A stretch of 64,000 nt of DNA from Chamaesiphon minutus PCC 6605 (GTDB lineage Bacteria; Cyanobacteriota; Cyanobacteriia; Cyanobacteriales; Chamaesiphonaceae). Both the position numbers and the translations under genes were made by a program. The stretch lies in the NCBI RefSeq assembly GCF_000317145.1, contig NC_019697.1:4002385-4066384 (forward strand), given 5' to 3'. The notes beneath the pieces were generated by a model. The model searched no databases, had not been told where the DNA came from, and was given only the letters and a program-made list of their open reading frames with translations. Position 1 is the first letter of the stretch, and every line of letters starts with the position of its first letter. This document shows positions 12,369 to 54,062 of this stretch, piece by piece.

Positions 12369-12917
12369 TTATTGGGATCGATACGATTTAACAATTTCTG
12401 TAAAAGCTGGCAACCCATCCTGGAAGGCTTTTATGTTGCGAGCATTAAGAACTATAAAATTGATTGTTTTTGCTTCTTCGATATATGCTACTGCTTCATG
12501 ATTGCCGTATCGATCGCCACTAAACCAATAAATTTTAACGATTAGTTTGTCGCCAATCTTTAAATTATTTTTAAAACTTGCTCGATAATTGGGATGACCA
12601 TTGTTGTGAAAATTTGTTACCAGATTATTTACAACATCTTGGGTATTGCGAATCTTGTTACCACGATCCATTGGCCTAGTATAAATTACGGCCTGACTAT
12701 TTGCCCAAGATGAATTAGCTGGATAAAATACGAGTGGAACTCCATCCGCTCTCATTGCTTCTGAATCGATCGCCCAACCTTTGGGAGCCGTAAGTGCATA
12801 ATTATGGTTGTCTCCACTAGCCTTGCCAGAACCGCCTTCAACTTGCGCTTGGATGGGCAATGCCAATCCAAAAATTAAAGTAGAGGCAATTACAATTCTC
12901 GAAAATGTAGATTTCAT
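12369..12917 (-). CDS. exported protein of unknown function
   Basis: The 182-residue product has a clear signal peptide (MKSTFSRIVIASTLIFGLAL, cleavage near IQAQ). The mature part reads NYALTAPKGWAIDSEAMRAD and VVNNLVTNFHNNGHPNYRAS, then VAYIEEAKTINFIVLNARN, a pattern of strand and helix that recalls PsbP-like or similar single-domain periplasmic folds, but I do not recognise the family. It is transcribed towards the methyltransferase gene, 52 bp away. Confidence 0.65.
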   Translation of the reverse strand: MKSTFSRIVIASTLIFGLALPIQAQVEGGSGKASGDNHNYALTAPKGWAIDSEAMRADGVPLVFYPANSSWANSQAVIYTRPMDRGNKIRNTQDVVNNLVTNFHNNGHPNYRASFKNNLKIGDKLIVKIYWFSGDRYGNHEAVAYIEEAKTINFIVLNARNIKAFQDGLPAFTEIVKSYRSQ

Positions 12918-12956
12918 AATATAGTTGGGAACGAGCGCGGTGTATTAAGTATTAAG

Positions 12957-12976
12957 TAGGGTGGGCTGTGCCCACC
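12957..12976 (+). repeat. GGTGGGC-GCCCACC palindrome, copy 2
   Basis: TAGGGTGGGCTGTGCCCACC, a further copy of the palindrome at 10887, in opposite orientation as judged by its TAGGG side. It lies 40 bp upstream of the exported-protein gene. Confidence 0.7.
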
Positions 12977-13056
12977 ACATGGGTTTCAGGTTATTATTAT
13001 CTAATAATCATCTGTATCCAAAGACTTAAATGGCTGGTAATTTCCAGCCTCATATC

Positions 13057-13150
13057 TTCTCAATTATTAATTGTCAATTAAGTAGTAATTGTAATCATTT
13101 AATGGATAAATAATGATTGAAACCTATTTGGTGGGCACTGCCCACCCTAC
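13057..13150 (+). repeat. diverged tandem duplication, unit 1 (includes palindrome copy 3)
   Basis: This unit (TCTCAATTATTAATTG ... AATCATTTAATGGATAA ... AACCTATTTGGTGGGC ... CCCACCCTAC) is similar along its length to 13260-13352 (TCTCTATTAATTGTTAAT ... AACCTAATTGGTGGGC ... CCCACCCTAC). Each unit ends in the GTGGGC palindrome. The two are separated by the 103-bp MITE. Confidence 0.65.
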
Positions 13151-13253
13151 TGGGACGACAAGCTTAAAAATGTGGGTAAAGCGATCGCTTAAAGTATTAC
13201 TGGTTGTATTTTTTACGGTTCTGAATGCCCACAATTTTAAGCGTGTCGAGCCA
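13151..13253 (+). mobile_element. 103-bp MITE, copy 1
   Basis: Starts TGGGACGACAAGCTTAAAA and ends, on the other strand, TGGCTCGACACGCTTAAAA; the two termini match at 22 of 26 positions. The element is flanked by CTAC on both sides (13147-13150 and 13254-13257), a 4-bp target duplication. A copy identical over all 103 bp lies at 53810-53912. The element has no credible coding capacity and contains one GCGATCGC. It must be moved by a transposase encoded elsewhere. Confidence 0.88.
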
Positions 13254-13259
13254 CTACTG

Positions 13260-13357
13260 AATTTCTCTATTAATTGTTAATAAAGTAGTAGTTACAATTA
13301 CTTAGCAGCTAGATAATGCTCTAAACCTAATTGGTGGGCAGTGCCCACCCTACTGAA
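13260..13357 (+). repeat. diverged tandem duplication, unit 2 (includes palindrome copy 4)
   Basis: Partner of 13057-13150. It ends GCCCACCCTACTGAATTTC, the same junction that the MITE interrupted in unit 1, where the right flank also reads CTACTGAATTTC. It therefore serves as a related empty site for the MITE. Confidence 0.65.
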
Positions 13358-13382
13358 TTTCTACTGAATTTCTGAATTTTAG

Positions 13383-13413
13383 TATCAACTATCAACTATC
13401 AACTATCAACTAA
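13383..13413 (+). repeat. heptamer tandem repeat (ATCAACT)n
   Basis: Four and a half units of ATCAACT directly before the chlD stop codon. Heptameric tandem repeats of this kind (STRR) are scattered in cyanobacterial intergenic DNA; another cluster is at 25263-25364. Confidence 0.75.
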
Positions 13414-15447
13414 TTAACGCATATCCCCGATCGCACTCATGGCTGTAGCTGCGATCGCTTGTTCGGTGGCTTTGGGAAGATGATGATATTTACCATTAGC
13501 TTGTTTGGCTAATTCTTTGGCAAATCCGGTCGAGATAAATTTATTTTCGGTGTCGATAACTAATAATTTAATCCCGATCGATCGAATCCGTGCGGCAATA
13601 TCTAACAATTCTTGCTTGATATCTGGCTTTTCATCAGGTGGGATAGTATCGCCCAAGGAACGTGCTAGCGGTACATTGCCCCGTCCGTCGGTAATAGCGA
13701 CGATAACTACTTGTCCGACATCGCCCGAACTTTGGGCGTTAACACCGACCCGCACGGCTTGAGTCAATCCGTGTGCCAGCGGCGAACCACCACCACAGGG
13801 AAGCCGTTCGAGGCGGCGTTTGGCCATCGCGATCGATCGAGTCGGGGGTAATAATACCTCAGCTTGTTCGCCTCGGAAGGGAATTAATGCTACTTGGTCG
13901 CGATTTTGGTACGCCTCTGTGAGCAGGCGCATCACGGCACCTTTCGCCGACTGCATTCGATTGAGAGCCATCGAACCCGAAGCATCTACTACAAATATTA
14001 CCAAGGCACCCGATTTACGGGCTAATTTTTTGCCGCGAATATCGCCTTGCTCGACGATCACTTTACGATCTGGTTGCCGCGCTCTGCGTGACTTTTGATA
14101 GGGTGCTGCGGCGCGTAATGTGGCATCTACGGCAATTCTGCGGACTTTGCCTTTGGGTAAAATCGGTTTTACATATCTGCCCCGATCTTCCGAAAATACT
14201 AGGCTGCGGCTGCCGGATTTGCCCTGTTTTTGTTGGGCAGATTGGGCAAAAGCGAGGATGGTATCGTCTAAGATTACGCCCTCGATATCAAAGACAAATT
14301 CTTCGGGAATATTCGGCGGTTCTTCCGGTTGGTCTTCATTTTCCGGCTCGTCGTCGTCATTATCTTCTTCCTGCTCGTCTTGCTCCTGCTCCGACTGGTC
14401 TTGAGGCTGCTGTGGCGGCGGTGGTGGTGGGGGGTTTTCCTCCGGTGGGGTTTGAATCACCGTCGCGCGGGGCACGATGACTAGTTCGACTGCGCGCCGC
14501 AGATCGTCAGCATTGACATTCGTGCGTCCTTCTAGTGCTGCTGCTGCTTTGGCCACCCGCACGGCAAATAATTCGGCGCGATGCCCCATGACGCCGCCAC
14601 GGAGGGCTTCGGTGACTAAATATGTAATCTGCTCTTGAGTAATCTGGACGTCTTTAAGCCATTCTCGCGCTAGCAGAATTTGGGTTTTGAGGTTATCGAT
14701 TTCTTCGGTATATTGGGTCAGAAAAGCTTGGGGCGAGGAAGAATAAGAAATTGCTTGACCGACGGCTTGCACGCGTTGGTCGATATCCAAGACGCCATCA
14801 GCCGATAGGGAAATTGCAATCCGATCGAGTAAATGCTCTCTTAATGCACCTTCTTCGGGATTATAGGTGGCAATCAGTAAAGGTTTACACGGATGTTGGA
14901 AGCTAATCCCTTCGCGTTCGATTTGGTTGCGCCCATCAGTGAGGACGCCCAGGAGGAGGTTAGCAATCTGGTCTTCAAGGAGGTTAATTTCATCGATATA
15001 TAAAACTCCCCGATGCGCTTGTGCCAATAGTCCTGGCTGAAATACCGAGGCTCCCGCCTGTACTGATTTATCCAAATCTACGGAACCCAATAGCCGATCC
15101 TCCGTCACGCCTAAAGGAATTTGGACGAAGGGAGTTGGCACGATTTTGGTCTGTAATTCTAGATTGGGATCTGATGCCCGCATGGCTGACAAACTATCGT
15201 CCCACTCGCTGGGAGCCTGCGGATCGCAGTTGCTGATGCCGCCAACGGCAATTTCGATCGGGGGTAAGAGCGAATGAATTGCCCGTGCCATGACCGATTT
15301 AGCCGTACCGCGACCGCCAGCGATCGCGACTCCTCCCAAGGTTGGATCGACAGCGGCCAGTAGCAGTGCTATTTTGATAGCTTCTTGTCCTACTACCGCA
15401 CTCAGAGGAAAGGCATTAATGTTGGAGGTGGCGATCGCTGTTGACAT
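13414..15447 (-). CDS. chlD: magnesium chelatase ATPase subunit D
   Basis: The 677-residue product has the standard ChlD layout. An AAA+ module starts with [20 protein letters not shown] at residues 44-63; a Pro-rich then acidic linker runs about residues 332-375 ([24 protein letters not shown]); and a C-terminal von Willebrand A domain has the MIDAS motif [12 protein letters not shown] near residue 485. ChlD forms the ATPase platform with ChlI that drives ChlH to insert Mg2+ into protoporphyrin IX, the first step of chlorophyll synthesis. The gene stands alone. The start is at ATG 15447. Confidence 0.97.
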
Positions 15448-53108: not shown

Positions 53109-53471
53109 TTAAATATCTGCTTCAATGACAGTTACGATCGCAATGACGATCGAGTTTATTTCTTCTGGGGTAAGAGATCCTAGTTTGCGGATAAATCGCT
53201 GGAGATCGACACCGCGAAGCTGGAGAGTATCGACACTAGAATCTTTGCTCAAACCATTGTCGGAATTAGGATTCAATTTAACATGCCATAAATTTCCCAC
53301 ATACCAATCTTTCCAGTCGGTAATCGGAGCAACTAGCTTAATAGGTAATACGCCAATATTATTCGAGCTGATGATTACTGCTGGTCTAATTTTCCTGATT
53401 TCTGTACCGAGAGTCGGGTCAAAATTGACCATCCACACCTCGCCGCGTTGTGGCGGATTCGAGCTAGTCAT
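53109..53471 (-). CDS. PemK/MazF-family toxin
   Basis: The 120-residue product has the MazF fold signs: QRGEVWMVNFDPTLGTEIRK, RPAVIISSNNIGVLPIKLVA, and VDTLQLRGVDLQRFIRKLG. MazF toxins are ribonucleases that cut mRNA at short motifs. Its start overlaps the upstream antitoxin gene by 8 bp, the normal order in such operons. It is complete. The cleavage sequence cannot be told from the protein. Confidence 0.93.
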   Translation of the reverse strand: MTSSNPPQRGEVWMVNFDPTLGTEIRKIRPAVIISSNNIGVLPIKLVAPITDWKDWYVGNLWHVKLNPNSDNGLSKDSSVDTLQLRGVDLQRFIRKLGSLTPEEINSIVIAIVTVIEADI

Positions 53472-53739
53472 CGATAATGTCTCCAGCCATCAATTCTCGC
53501 CATTCGGTTGATGTCTGATAGTGTTCGACCATCTGTTGGGCTTGTTGGGCTAGAATCAGTTGTCTTTGGGCTAATGGTTTACGCAGAAAAGCCCGCCGAT
53601 CTTCTAATGTTAACTCGGTCTTGCTGTTAGACCACTCGAAATCGGGTAATATAGATAGTCTCTGTTTGACTAATTCCCGTTCGGCTGGGGGAAGGGTTTC
53701 AACCATTTGCACGATCGAATCTACTAGCTGAGTATTCAT
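53464..53739 (-). CDS. antitoxin partner of the MazF-type toxin
   Basis: The 91-residue product begins MNTQLVDSIVQMVETLPPAE and has a mixed charged helix (RRAFLRKPLAQRQLILAQQA) and a C-terminal acidic tail (MAGDIIDD) that would wrap the toxin. It lies upstream of and overlaps the toxin gene by 8 bp. It does not look like MazE of E. coli; the assignment rests on position and size. Confidence 0.8.
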   Translation of the reverse strand: MNTQLVDSIVQMVETLPPAERELVKQRLSILPDFEWSNSKTELTLEDRRAFLRKPLAQRQLILAQQAQQMVEHYQTSTEWRELMAGDIIDD

Positions 53740-54062
53740 TGATAGGTAAGCTCAGGAATCTAGCTACTATTATATCTAGAGCCGCGATCGTTGGCGTAGC
53801 CTACCGTAGTGGGACGACAAGCTTAAAAATGTGGGTAAAGCGATCGCTTAAAGTATTACTGGTTGTATTTTTTACGGTTCTGAATGCCCACAATTTTAAG
53901 CGTGTCGAGCCAGTAGGTAATCGACACCAAATTAGAGAGTTAGATGTTGCTGAGGTGAGTGGTATAGATGGGTAAGATGAGGATCGATCGCTATCCCAAA
54001 TCAAGCAAATATCTTGCCATTTATAGATTAGAGATAATTGTTGATCGAATCGTTATAAATAC
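53740..54062. other. intergenic region holding MITE copy 2
   Basis: 323 bp between the antitoxin start and a convergent-side hypothetical gene. Apart from the MITE at 53810-53912 and CGATCG words, I see nothing; the frames open here lie over the MITE. Confidence 0.5.
53810..53912 (+). mobile_element. 103-bp MITE, copy 2
   Basis: Identical over 103 bp to 13151-13253. It is flanked by GTAG on both sides (53806-53809 and 53913-53916), the reverse complement of the CTAC that flanks copy 1. The same target word in both places suggests site preference. It lies 71 bp upstream of the antitoxin start and may affect that promoter. Confidence 0.88.

Follow-up and report, generated by a model that had tools for sequence, protein, structure and literature searches.

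A 103-bp sequence that occurs twice within the 64,000-nucleotide stretch of the Chamaesiphon minutus PCC 6605 chromosome analysed here (the window) is a MITE: it is short and non-coding, has terminal inverted repeats and a target-site duplication, and is present in several dispersed copies. It is a mobile element without genes that has recently been copied around the chromosome, and it very probably derives from an insertion sequence of the IS630 type (IS630/Tc1/mariner), is mobilised in trans and inserts at [C/G]TA[C/G] words with a 4-bp duplication. In the proposed mechanism, a transposase supplied in trans would bind the terminal repeats, excise the element and insert it at such a word, giving rise to the duplication. 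Nearly every insertion in this genome lies at a REP palindrome, with its GTAG foot as the word. Both the cut-and-paste character of the movement and the mobilisation in trans are what we infer from the copies, their ends and their flanks.

The element and its copies

The two copies in the window, their ends and their flanking words, the latter read directly from the sequence, are located as follows.

13151..13253 (+): MITE copy 1, 103 bp, identical to 53810-53912 and to two more chromosomal copies
13151..13176 (+): left terminal inverted repeat of copy 1, 22/26 against the inverted right end
13228..13253 (-): right terminal inverted repeat of copy 1, from the end pattern match and comparison with the G099 end (see below)
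13147..13150 (no strand): target word CTAC left of copy 1, equal to the GTAG foot of a REP on the minus strand
13254..13257 (no strand): target word CTAC right of copy 1 (duplication)
53810..53912 (+): MITE copy 2, 103 bp, identical to copy 1
53806..53809 (no strand): target word GTAG left of copy 2
53913..53916 (no strand): target word GTAG right of copy 2 (duplication), with no adjoining REP

Sequence comparison within the window bears out the sequence-only reading of this DNA in its identity of 13151-13253 with 53810-53912 over all 103 bp, in the 22 matches counted between the first 26 and the inverted last 26 bases, and in the flanks, which are exact at both copies (CTAC/CTAC and GTAG/GTAG). 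With up to 3 mismatches allowed, each end pattern matches the window only at the two MITE places (mean of 100 shuffles, 0.00), so the four transposases examined in the window (DDE_Tnp_1, ISL3, IS66 and OrfB/IS605 types) have other ends. No ORF of at least 80 aa overlaps either copy. The plus strand of the MITE folds at -40.5 kcal/mol (z = -5.9), and an Rfam search of 12700-13500 returned five weak matches, the one on the MITE reaching 14.5 bits against a gathering score of 80, and hence no known RNA family.

A PemK/MazF-like toxin gene lies at 53109-53739 on the minus strand with a small ORF upstream of it, and copy 2 starts 70 bp upstream of the start of this small ORF, a position from which it could affect the ORF's promoter; a promoter and terminator scan of 53700-54000, around copy 2, detected neither.

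The genome comprises three contigs (6.76 Mb), with a chromosome of 6,284,095 bp. Sequence search found four identical copies of the MITE, others at 88, 87 and 85% identity and some weaker ones, and an end-pattern search added three more, two of them truncated. The further genomic copies anticipated by the sequence-only reading thus exist, and its proposal of a single target word also holds. Eight of the nine scored copies in this genome are flanked by identical CTAC or GTAG; a copy lacking the 4-bp duplication, which it had named as evidence to the contrary, occurs once among the nine, in the diverged L009. Its other concern, identity running on past 103 bp, is answered as well: identity stops with the element, which excludes a longer repeat.

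Kinship with IS630-type elements

The ends of the MITE are related to those of IS630-like gene pieces in other cyanobacterial genomes. A search listed MITE-type ends (GGCAAGCTTAA type) from four genomes. One of these, G099, has 14, of which 10 fall no more than about 140 bases from the end of a contig, a clustering that marks a longer multi-copy repeat. These ten G099 contig tips carry TGGACTGGCAAGCTTAAAATTGTGGGTAA, which in six is followed by a reading frame beginning MSNPKLKYRIKLSTEQRQEL (N-terminus) and in four by one ending WQFTTDDARIKLNHLYPQF or ILKVELAHWQEERNREKVKIQWQFTTDDARIKLNHLYPQF and a stop (C-terminus); from their sequence, the peptides appear to be N- and C-terminal pieces of an IS630-like transposase. 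This element is known from contig tips alone, its middle and the paired flanks of one copy never being seen together. Its six left ends adjoin the words GTAG (three times), CTAC, CTAG and GTAC and its four right ends GTAG (three times) and CTAC, sets that could pair up, two partners being absent, in the way expected of a 4-bp duplication.

The first 31 bases of the MITE (its 5′ arm) match the right end of the G099 element at 26 of 31 positions; the MITE copies apart, no place in the window exceeds 20. Seventeen of the 31 belong to the pattern that led to G099, but 13 of the remaining 14 match as well (by eye). The G099 C-terminal piece detected 134 plasmid records, and 17 among the 40 listed are annotated as IS630 family transposase (54-62% identical); it also matched one phage record (48.6%). 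The N-terminal 30 aa found no match in plasmids, and neither short peptide gave an IS630 match in Pfam or NCBIfam. At 16 related plasmid IS630 loci, the ends of 11 were set between CTAG words by a script whose score favoured equal flanks and TA, and those of a twelfth (L245) by eye; another (L244) reads GTAG...CTAC, and three (L240, L249 and L252) have no clear ends. As CTAG is palindromic, these plasmid flanks cannot separate a 4-bp duplication from a TA duplication with terminal G...C, whereas copies at GTAG, CTAC or GTAC can.

Two further loci join IS630-like sequence to ends of this kind. In the C. minutus genome itself, a truncated IS630-like 5′ end stands at a REP foot on the minus strand (L188, G000:C1 about 1729888-1729994); it reads REP-CTAC-TAGCTCGGCAAGCTTAAAATTGTG and onwards, encodes MSNPNIKYRVELTLEQRED, which matches the G099 N-terminus over 20 aa (55%, E 4e-4), and runs into a fragment of another transposase (a weak DDE_Tnp_1_3 match, under the cut-off). 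In a Nostocales strain (L204), an IS630 N-terminus (E 6e-22 to a Gloeocapsopsis protein) lies behind an TGGCGCGACACAGCTAAAAT end; its frames are broken further along, and a search for its second end found none. L204 was the only one of 17 loci, checked for second ends and transposases in a contig scan for ends, to carry an IS630 piece.

A full element, with an IS630-like transposase between MITE ends, was not seen, N- and C-terminal pieces alone being present in G099 and in the remnant. The autonomous relative with the same ends that the sequence-only reading suggested looking for was therefore recovered in part, as contig-end pieces outside this genome and a truncated remnant within it. By end patterns, the C. 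minutus genome showed no intact IS630 element with MITE ends and no inverted pair of matching ends at IS distance, and other genomes no autonomous element among the matches listed; loose ends in G065, G069, G144 and G174 showed no complete IS. Several candidates were rejected: two end pairs within 6 kb in the C. minutus genome (pattern without mismatches) are due to chance, ends 1.9 kb apart in G043 are separate hairpins, and IS701-type transposases (18 hits) fall into groups of 8 and 6 copies with other ends, covering 14 of the 18.

Insertion at the feet of REP palindromes

The sequence struck by copy 1 belongs to a repeat that is also present unsplit nearby; the palindromes below were placed by repeat comparison, the first by sequence and repeat search.

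13130..13146 (-): REP palindrome GGTGGGCACTGCCCACC, whose GTAG foot received copy 1
13333..13349 (-): REP palindrome within the unsplit unit
12960..12976 (+): a third REP palindrome, which forms an inverted REP pair with the one at 13130-13146
13343..13361 (+): paralogous empty site, GCCCACC-CTAC-TGAATTTC, read from the sequence

The repeat unit that contains the empty site is 88 bp long, lies 203 bp downstream of the unit hit by copy 1 and is 81% identical to it. Its unsplit sequence is as had been proposed, with the coordinates moved by at most 2 bases from the original 13345-13362. Beyond that proposal, the tandem repeat with the empty site is one of the REP units, and the insertion falls at the GTAG foot of such a unit. 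The inverted REP pair at 12955-13151, with a 91-bp spacer and 53-nt arms that are 77% complementary, itself forms a REPIN-like unit.

When insertion sites are read with the word as GTAG, the next bases are the palindrome GGTGGGCANTGCCCACC or a variant of it. This palindrome has 81 exact occurrences in the genome, and GTAG followed by it (up to 2 mismatches) has 140 (73 + 67; control, 1). It looks like a RAYT-type REP, since several GTAG-GGTGGGCANTGCCCACC REPs flank two genes for RAYT-sized Y1 transposases (191 and 196 aa, slightly above the Pfam cut-off) at G000:C1 3366983-3367339 and 6142885-6143238 (L074 and L075).

By eye, 9 of 10 MITE copies in this genome (L001-L009 and L045; L033 and L036, both truncated, are not counted) adjoin a REP palindrome at its GTAG foot, with the REP degenerate or interrupted at four of the nine (L005, L008, L009 and L045); window copy 2 (L002) is the sole one of the ten without a REP. 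With about 140 REP feet among about 42,000 GTAG/CTAC words, a number extrapolated from the window, the binomial probability of this is about 5e-22, copies being taken as independent and worn REPs counted in the nine. Across genomes, a stem score of at least 6 was found at the foot of 27 of 46 GTAG-flanked copies and of 35 of 496 other GTAGs at the same loci (Fisher p 1e-16), and a score of at least 7 at 22 of 46 and 22 of 496, respectively.

Alternatively, the element could insert at many different GTAG-type words, and the copies at REP feet would be survivors at harmless intergenic sites, with no targeting of REPs. The lack of a REP at copy 2 agrees with this, as does the autonomous element of G099, where just one of the ten tips (L225, by eye) has a REP at the word. 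We nevertheless consider it rather unlikely, because even with the available words limited to an assumed 15% (the intergenic share) the binomial probability is about 1e-14, and because the insertions fall at an exact nucleotide, the foot, rather than in the REP neighbourhood. Target choice thus appears the better explanation of the adjacency. It may come about through a preference of the transposase, cruciform structure, or RAYT binding or nicking, just as survival of harmless insertions may contribute; a pure transposase preference is weakened by the single REP among the G099 tips.

Nesting of these repeats was also observed elsewhere. To the left of the MITE at L005, the loop of the adjoining REP is split by another hairpin sequence, a nested insertion, and in other genomes (L165, L166, L238 and L267-L271) MITE ends enclose REP-like palindromes (beginning GTAGGGTGGGTTAGG or GTAGGTTGGGTT), the nesting being reversed relative to the element studied here.

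Target duplication in the wider family

Of 291 genomes from the order, 28, this one among them, contain matches to a covariance model built from 11 copies, and these represent 20 of 121 genera; the weakest matches may be due to chance, and one (L160) has no recognisable ends. Plain DNA search detected the family in 7 of 60 genomes, again including this one. The arms vary between lineages yet remain complementary, 5 of 17 predicted pairs having changed on both sides, with a small covariation term (-0.36). The 103-bp MITE found nothing in plasmids or phages, nor did two exact end patterns in viral contigs; an end-consensus query of the GACACAGC type matched 5 plasmid records and two other such queries none.

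Flanks were scored at 68 copies (52 covariance-model loci, nine from this genome and seven others from the plain DNA search), L008, L033, L036, L065 and L067 being left out as worn, truncated or doubtful. Identical 4-bp flanks are present at 44, all of the form STAS and in either orientation (21 GTAG, 19 CTAC, 3 CTAG and 1 GTAC), so that duplication of TA alone, the mark of IS630-derived elements, is not what these copies show. The remaining 24 include worn copies, and seven of them (L112, L127, L128, L134, L139, L157 and L161) read GTAG...CTAN, a pattern consistent with duplication of TA alone (2 bp) and a fixed terminal G...C; both modes of duplication may therefore exist in the family.

Four identical copies in G146 have the words GTAG, CTAC, CTAC and CTAG and, since these differ, the word derives from the target. 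A tRNA thought to be split by a G146 copy was rejected, there being no tRNA in the filled or the empty site. At L064 and L070, the central GCGATCGC octamer of the MITE is split by a short repeat ending GCCAACGC that itself looks mobile.

These flanks also bear on whether the hairpin might be a REP-like unit moved single-stranded by a RAYT (Y1), with GTAG as the RAYT tag or cleavage site rather than a target duplication. The struck REPs are GTAG-tagged and accompany the two RAYT-like genes, and the MITE is a strong hairpin between two GTAGs. Against this, copies of identical sequence stand in either orientation to GTAG, three to one in the C. minutus genome and likewise in G146 and G141, where a RAYT unit would keep a fixed orientation; the word is CTAG or GTAC on at least one side of seven copies (both sides in four, one side only in L129, L152 and L158); and the ends match an IS630-like element. 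Both orientations are as expected for double-strand DDE insertion and, together with the variation of the word by site, favour insertion as double strand, with duplication, over transfer of a single strand by a RAYT. RAYT as mobiliser is accordingly rejected on orientation and variety of words, and we regard this explanation as quite improbable.

That the copies spread through recombination or gene conversion among REP clusters, and not by transposition, is very improbable indeed: the REP and some adjacent bases are common to three of the four identical copies on one side, but copy 2 shares nothing there, on the other side none of the four has identity past the 4-bp word, and the orientation of both word and element varies, so that of the "recent movement or conversion" originally suggested the movement stands and conversion, given the unrelated flanks of copy 2, is unlikely.

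Comparison with known systems

For this family of hairpin repeats in cyanobacteria, the analysis supplies a probable type of parent, a rule for the target and a range of hosts. The family also provides a natural case in which to ask whether transposases of the IS630 type can cut with a 4-bp instead of a 2-bp stagger. We give about even credence to a broader reading in which a cyanobacterial branch of IS630/Tc1/mariner left the TA rule for 4-bp [C/G]TA[C/G] duplications and its MITEs seek out REPs produced by RAYTs, at their GTAG foot, so that mobile repeats of two unrelated kinds, double-strand DDE and single-strand Y1, form nested mosaics on one tetranucleotide. Nezha is reportedly a cyanobacterial MITE. 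No description of the present family was found in the titles, abstract openings and passages searched, in which subscription papers are mostly absent, so that this is no proof of its being unpublished; end sequences searched as letters returned only papers unrelated by title. MITEs are reviewed in PMC10969869, and IS701 duplications are treated in PMC8024623.

The MITE resembles the IS630 family (IS630, ISY100 and relatives such as ISMae29) in the attachment of its ends to IS630-like transposase pieces and in its TA-centred target. It differs in duplicating 4 bp (STAS), including at non-palindromic words, which is unusual because published IS630 elements, as passages on IS630 and ISY100 describe them, duplicate only TA (PMC2170065). 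MITEPsy1 of Pseudomonas syringae, a 100-nt MITE mobile in vivo that duplicates 4 nt (CTAG or YTAA), is alike in size class and length of duplication, but its ends are related to ISPsy2 of the IS5 family, and in passages of that report no REP link was found (PMC3189936).

Insertion at REP palindromes is shared with IS1397, ISKpn1, IS621, ISPsy8, ISPpu9/10 and ISRm22, which belong to the families IS3, IS110, IS4, IS256 and IS5 (PMC1525189). IS630 is absent from these five families as named there, and the MITE strikes the GTAG foot; REP feet thus serve as landing sites for an element of a further type. GTAG-tagged REPs and RAYTs are described in cyanobacteria, including REPs within longer palindromes in Anabaena variabilis (PMC3733652); the target of the MITE looks to be of that kind, whereas the 103-bp element itself is not such a REP.
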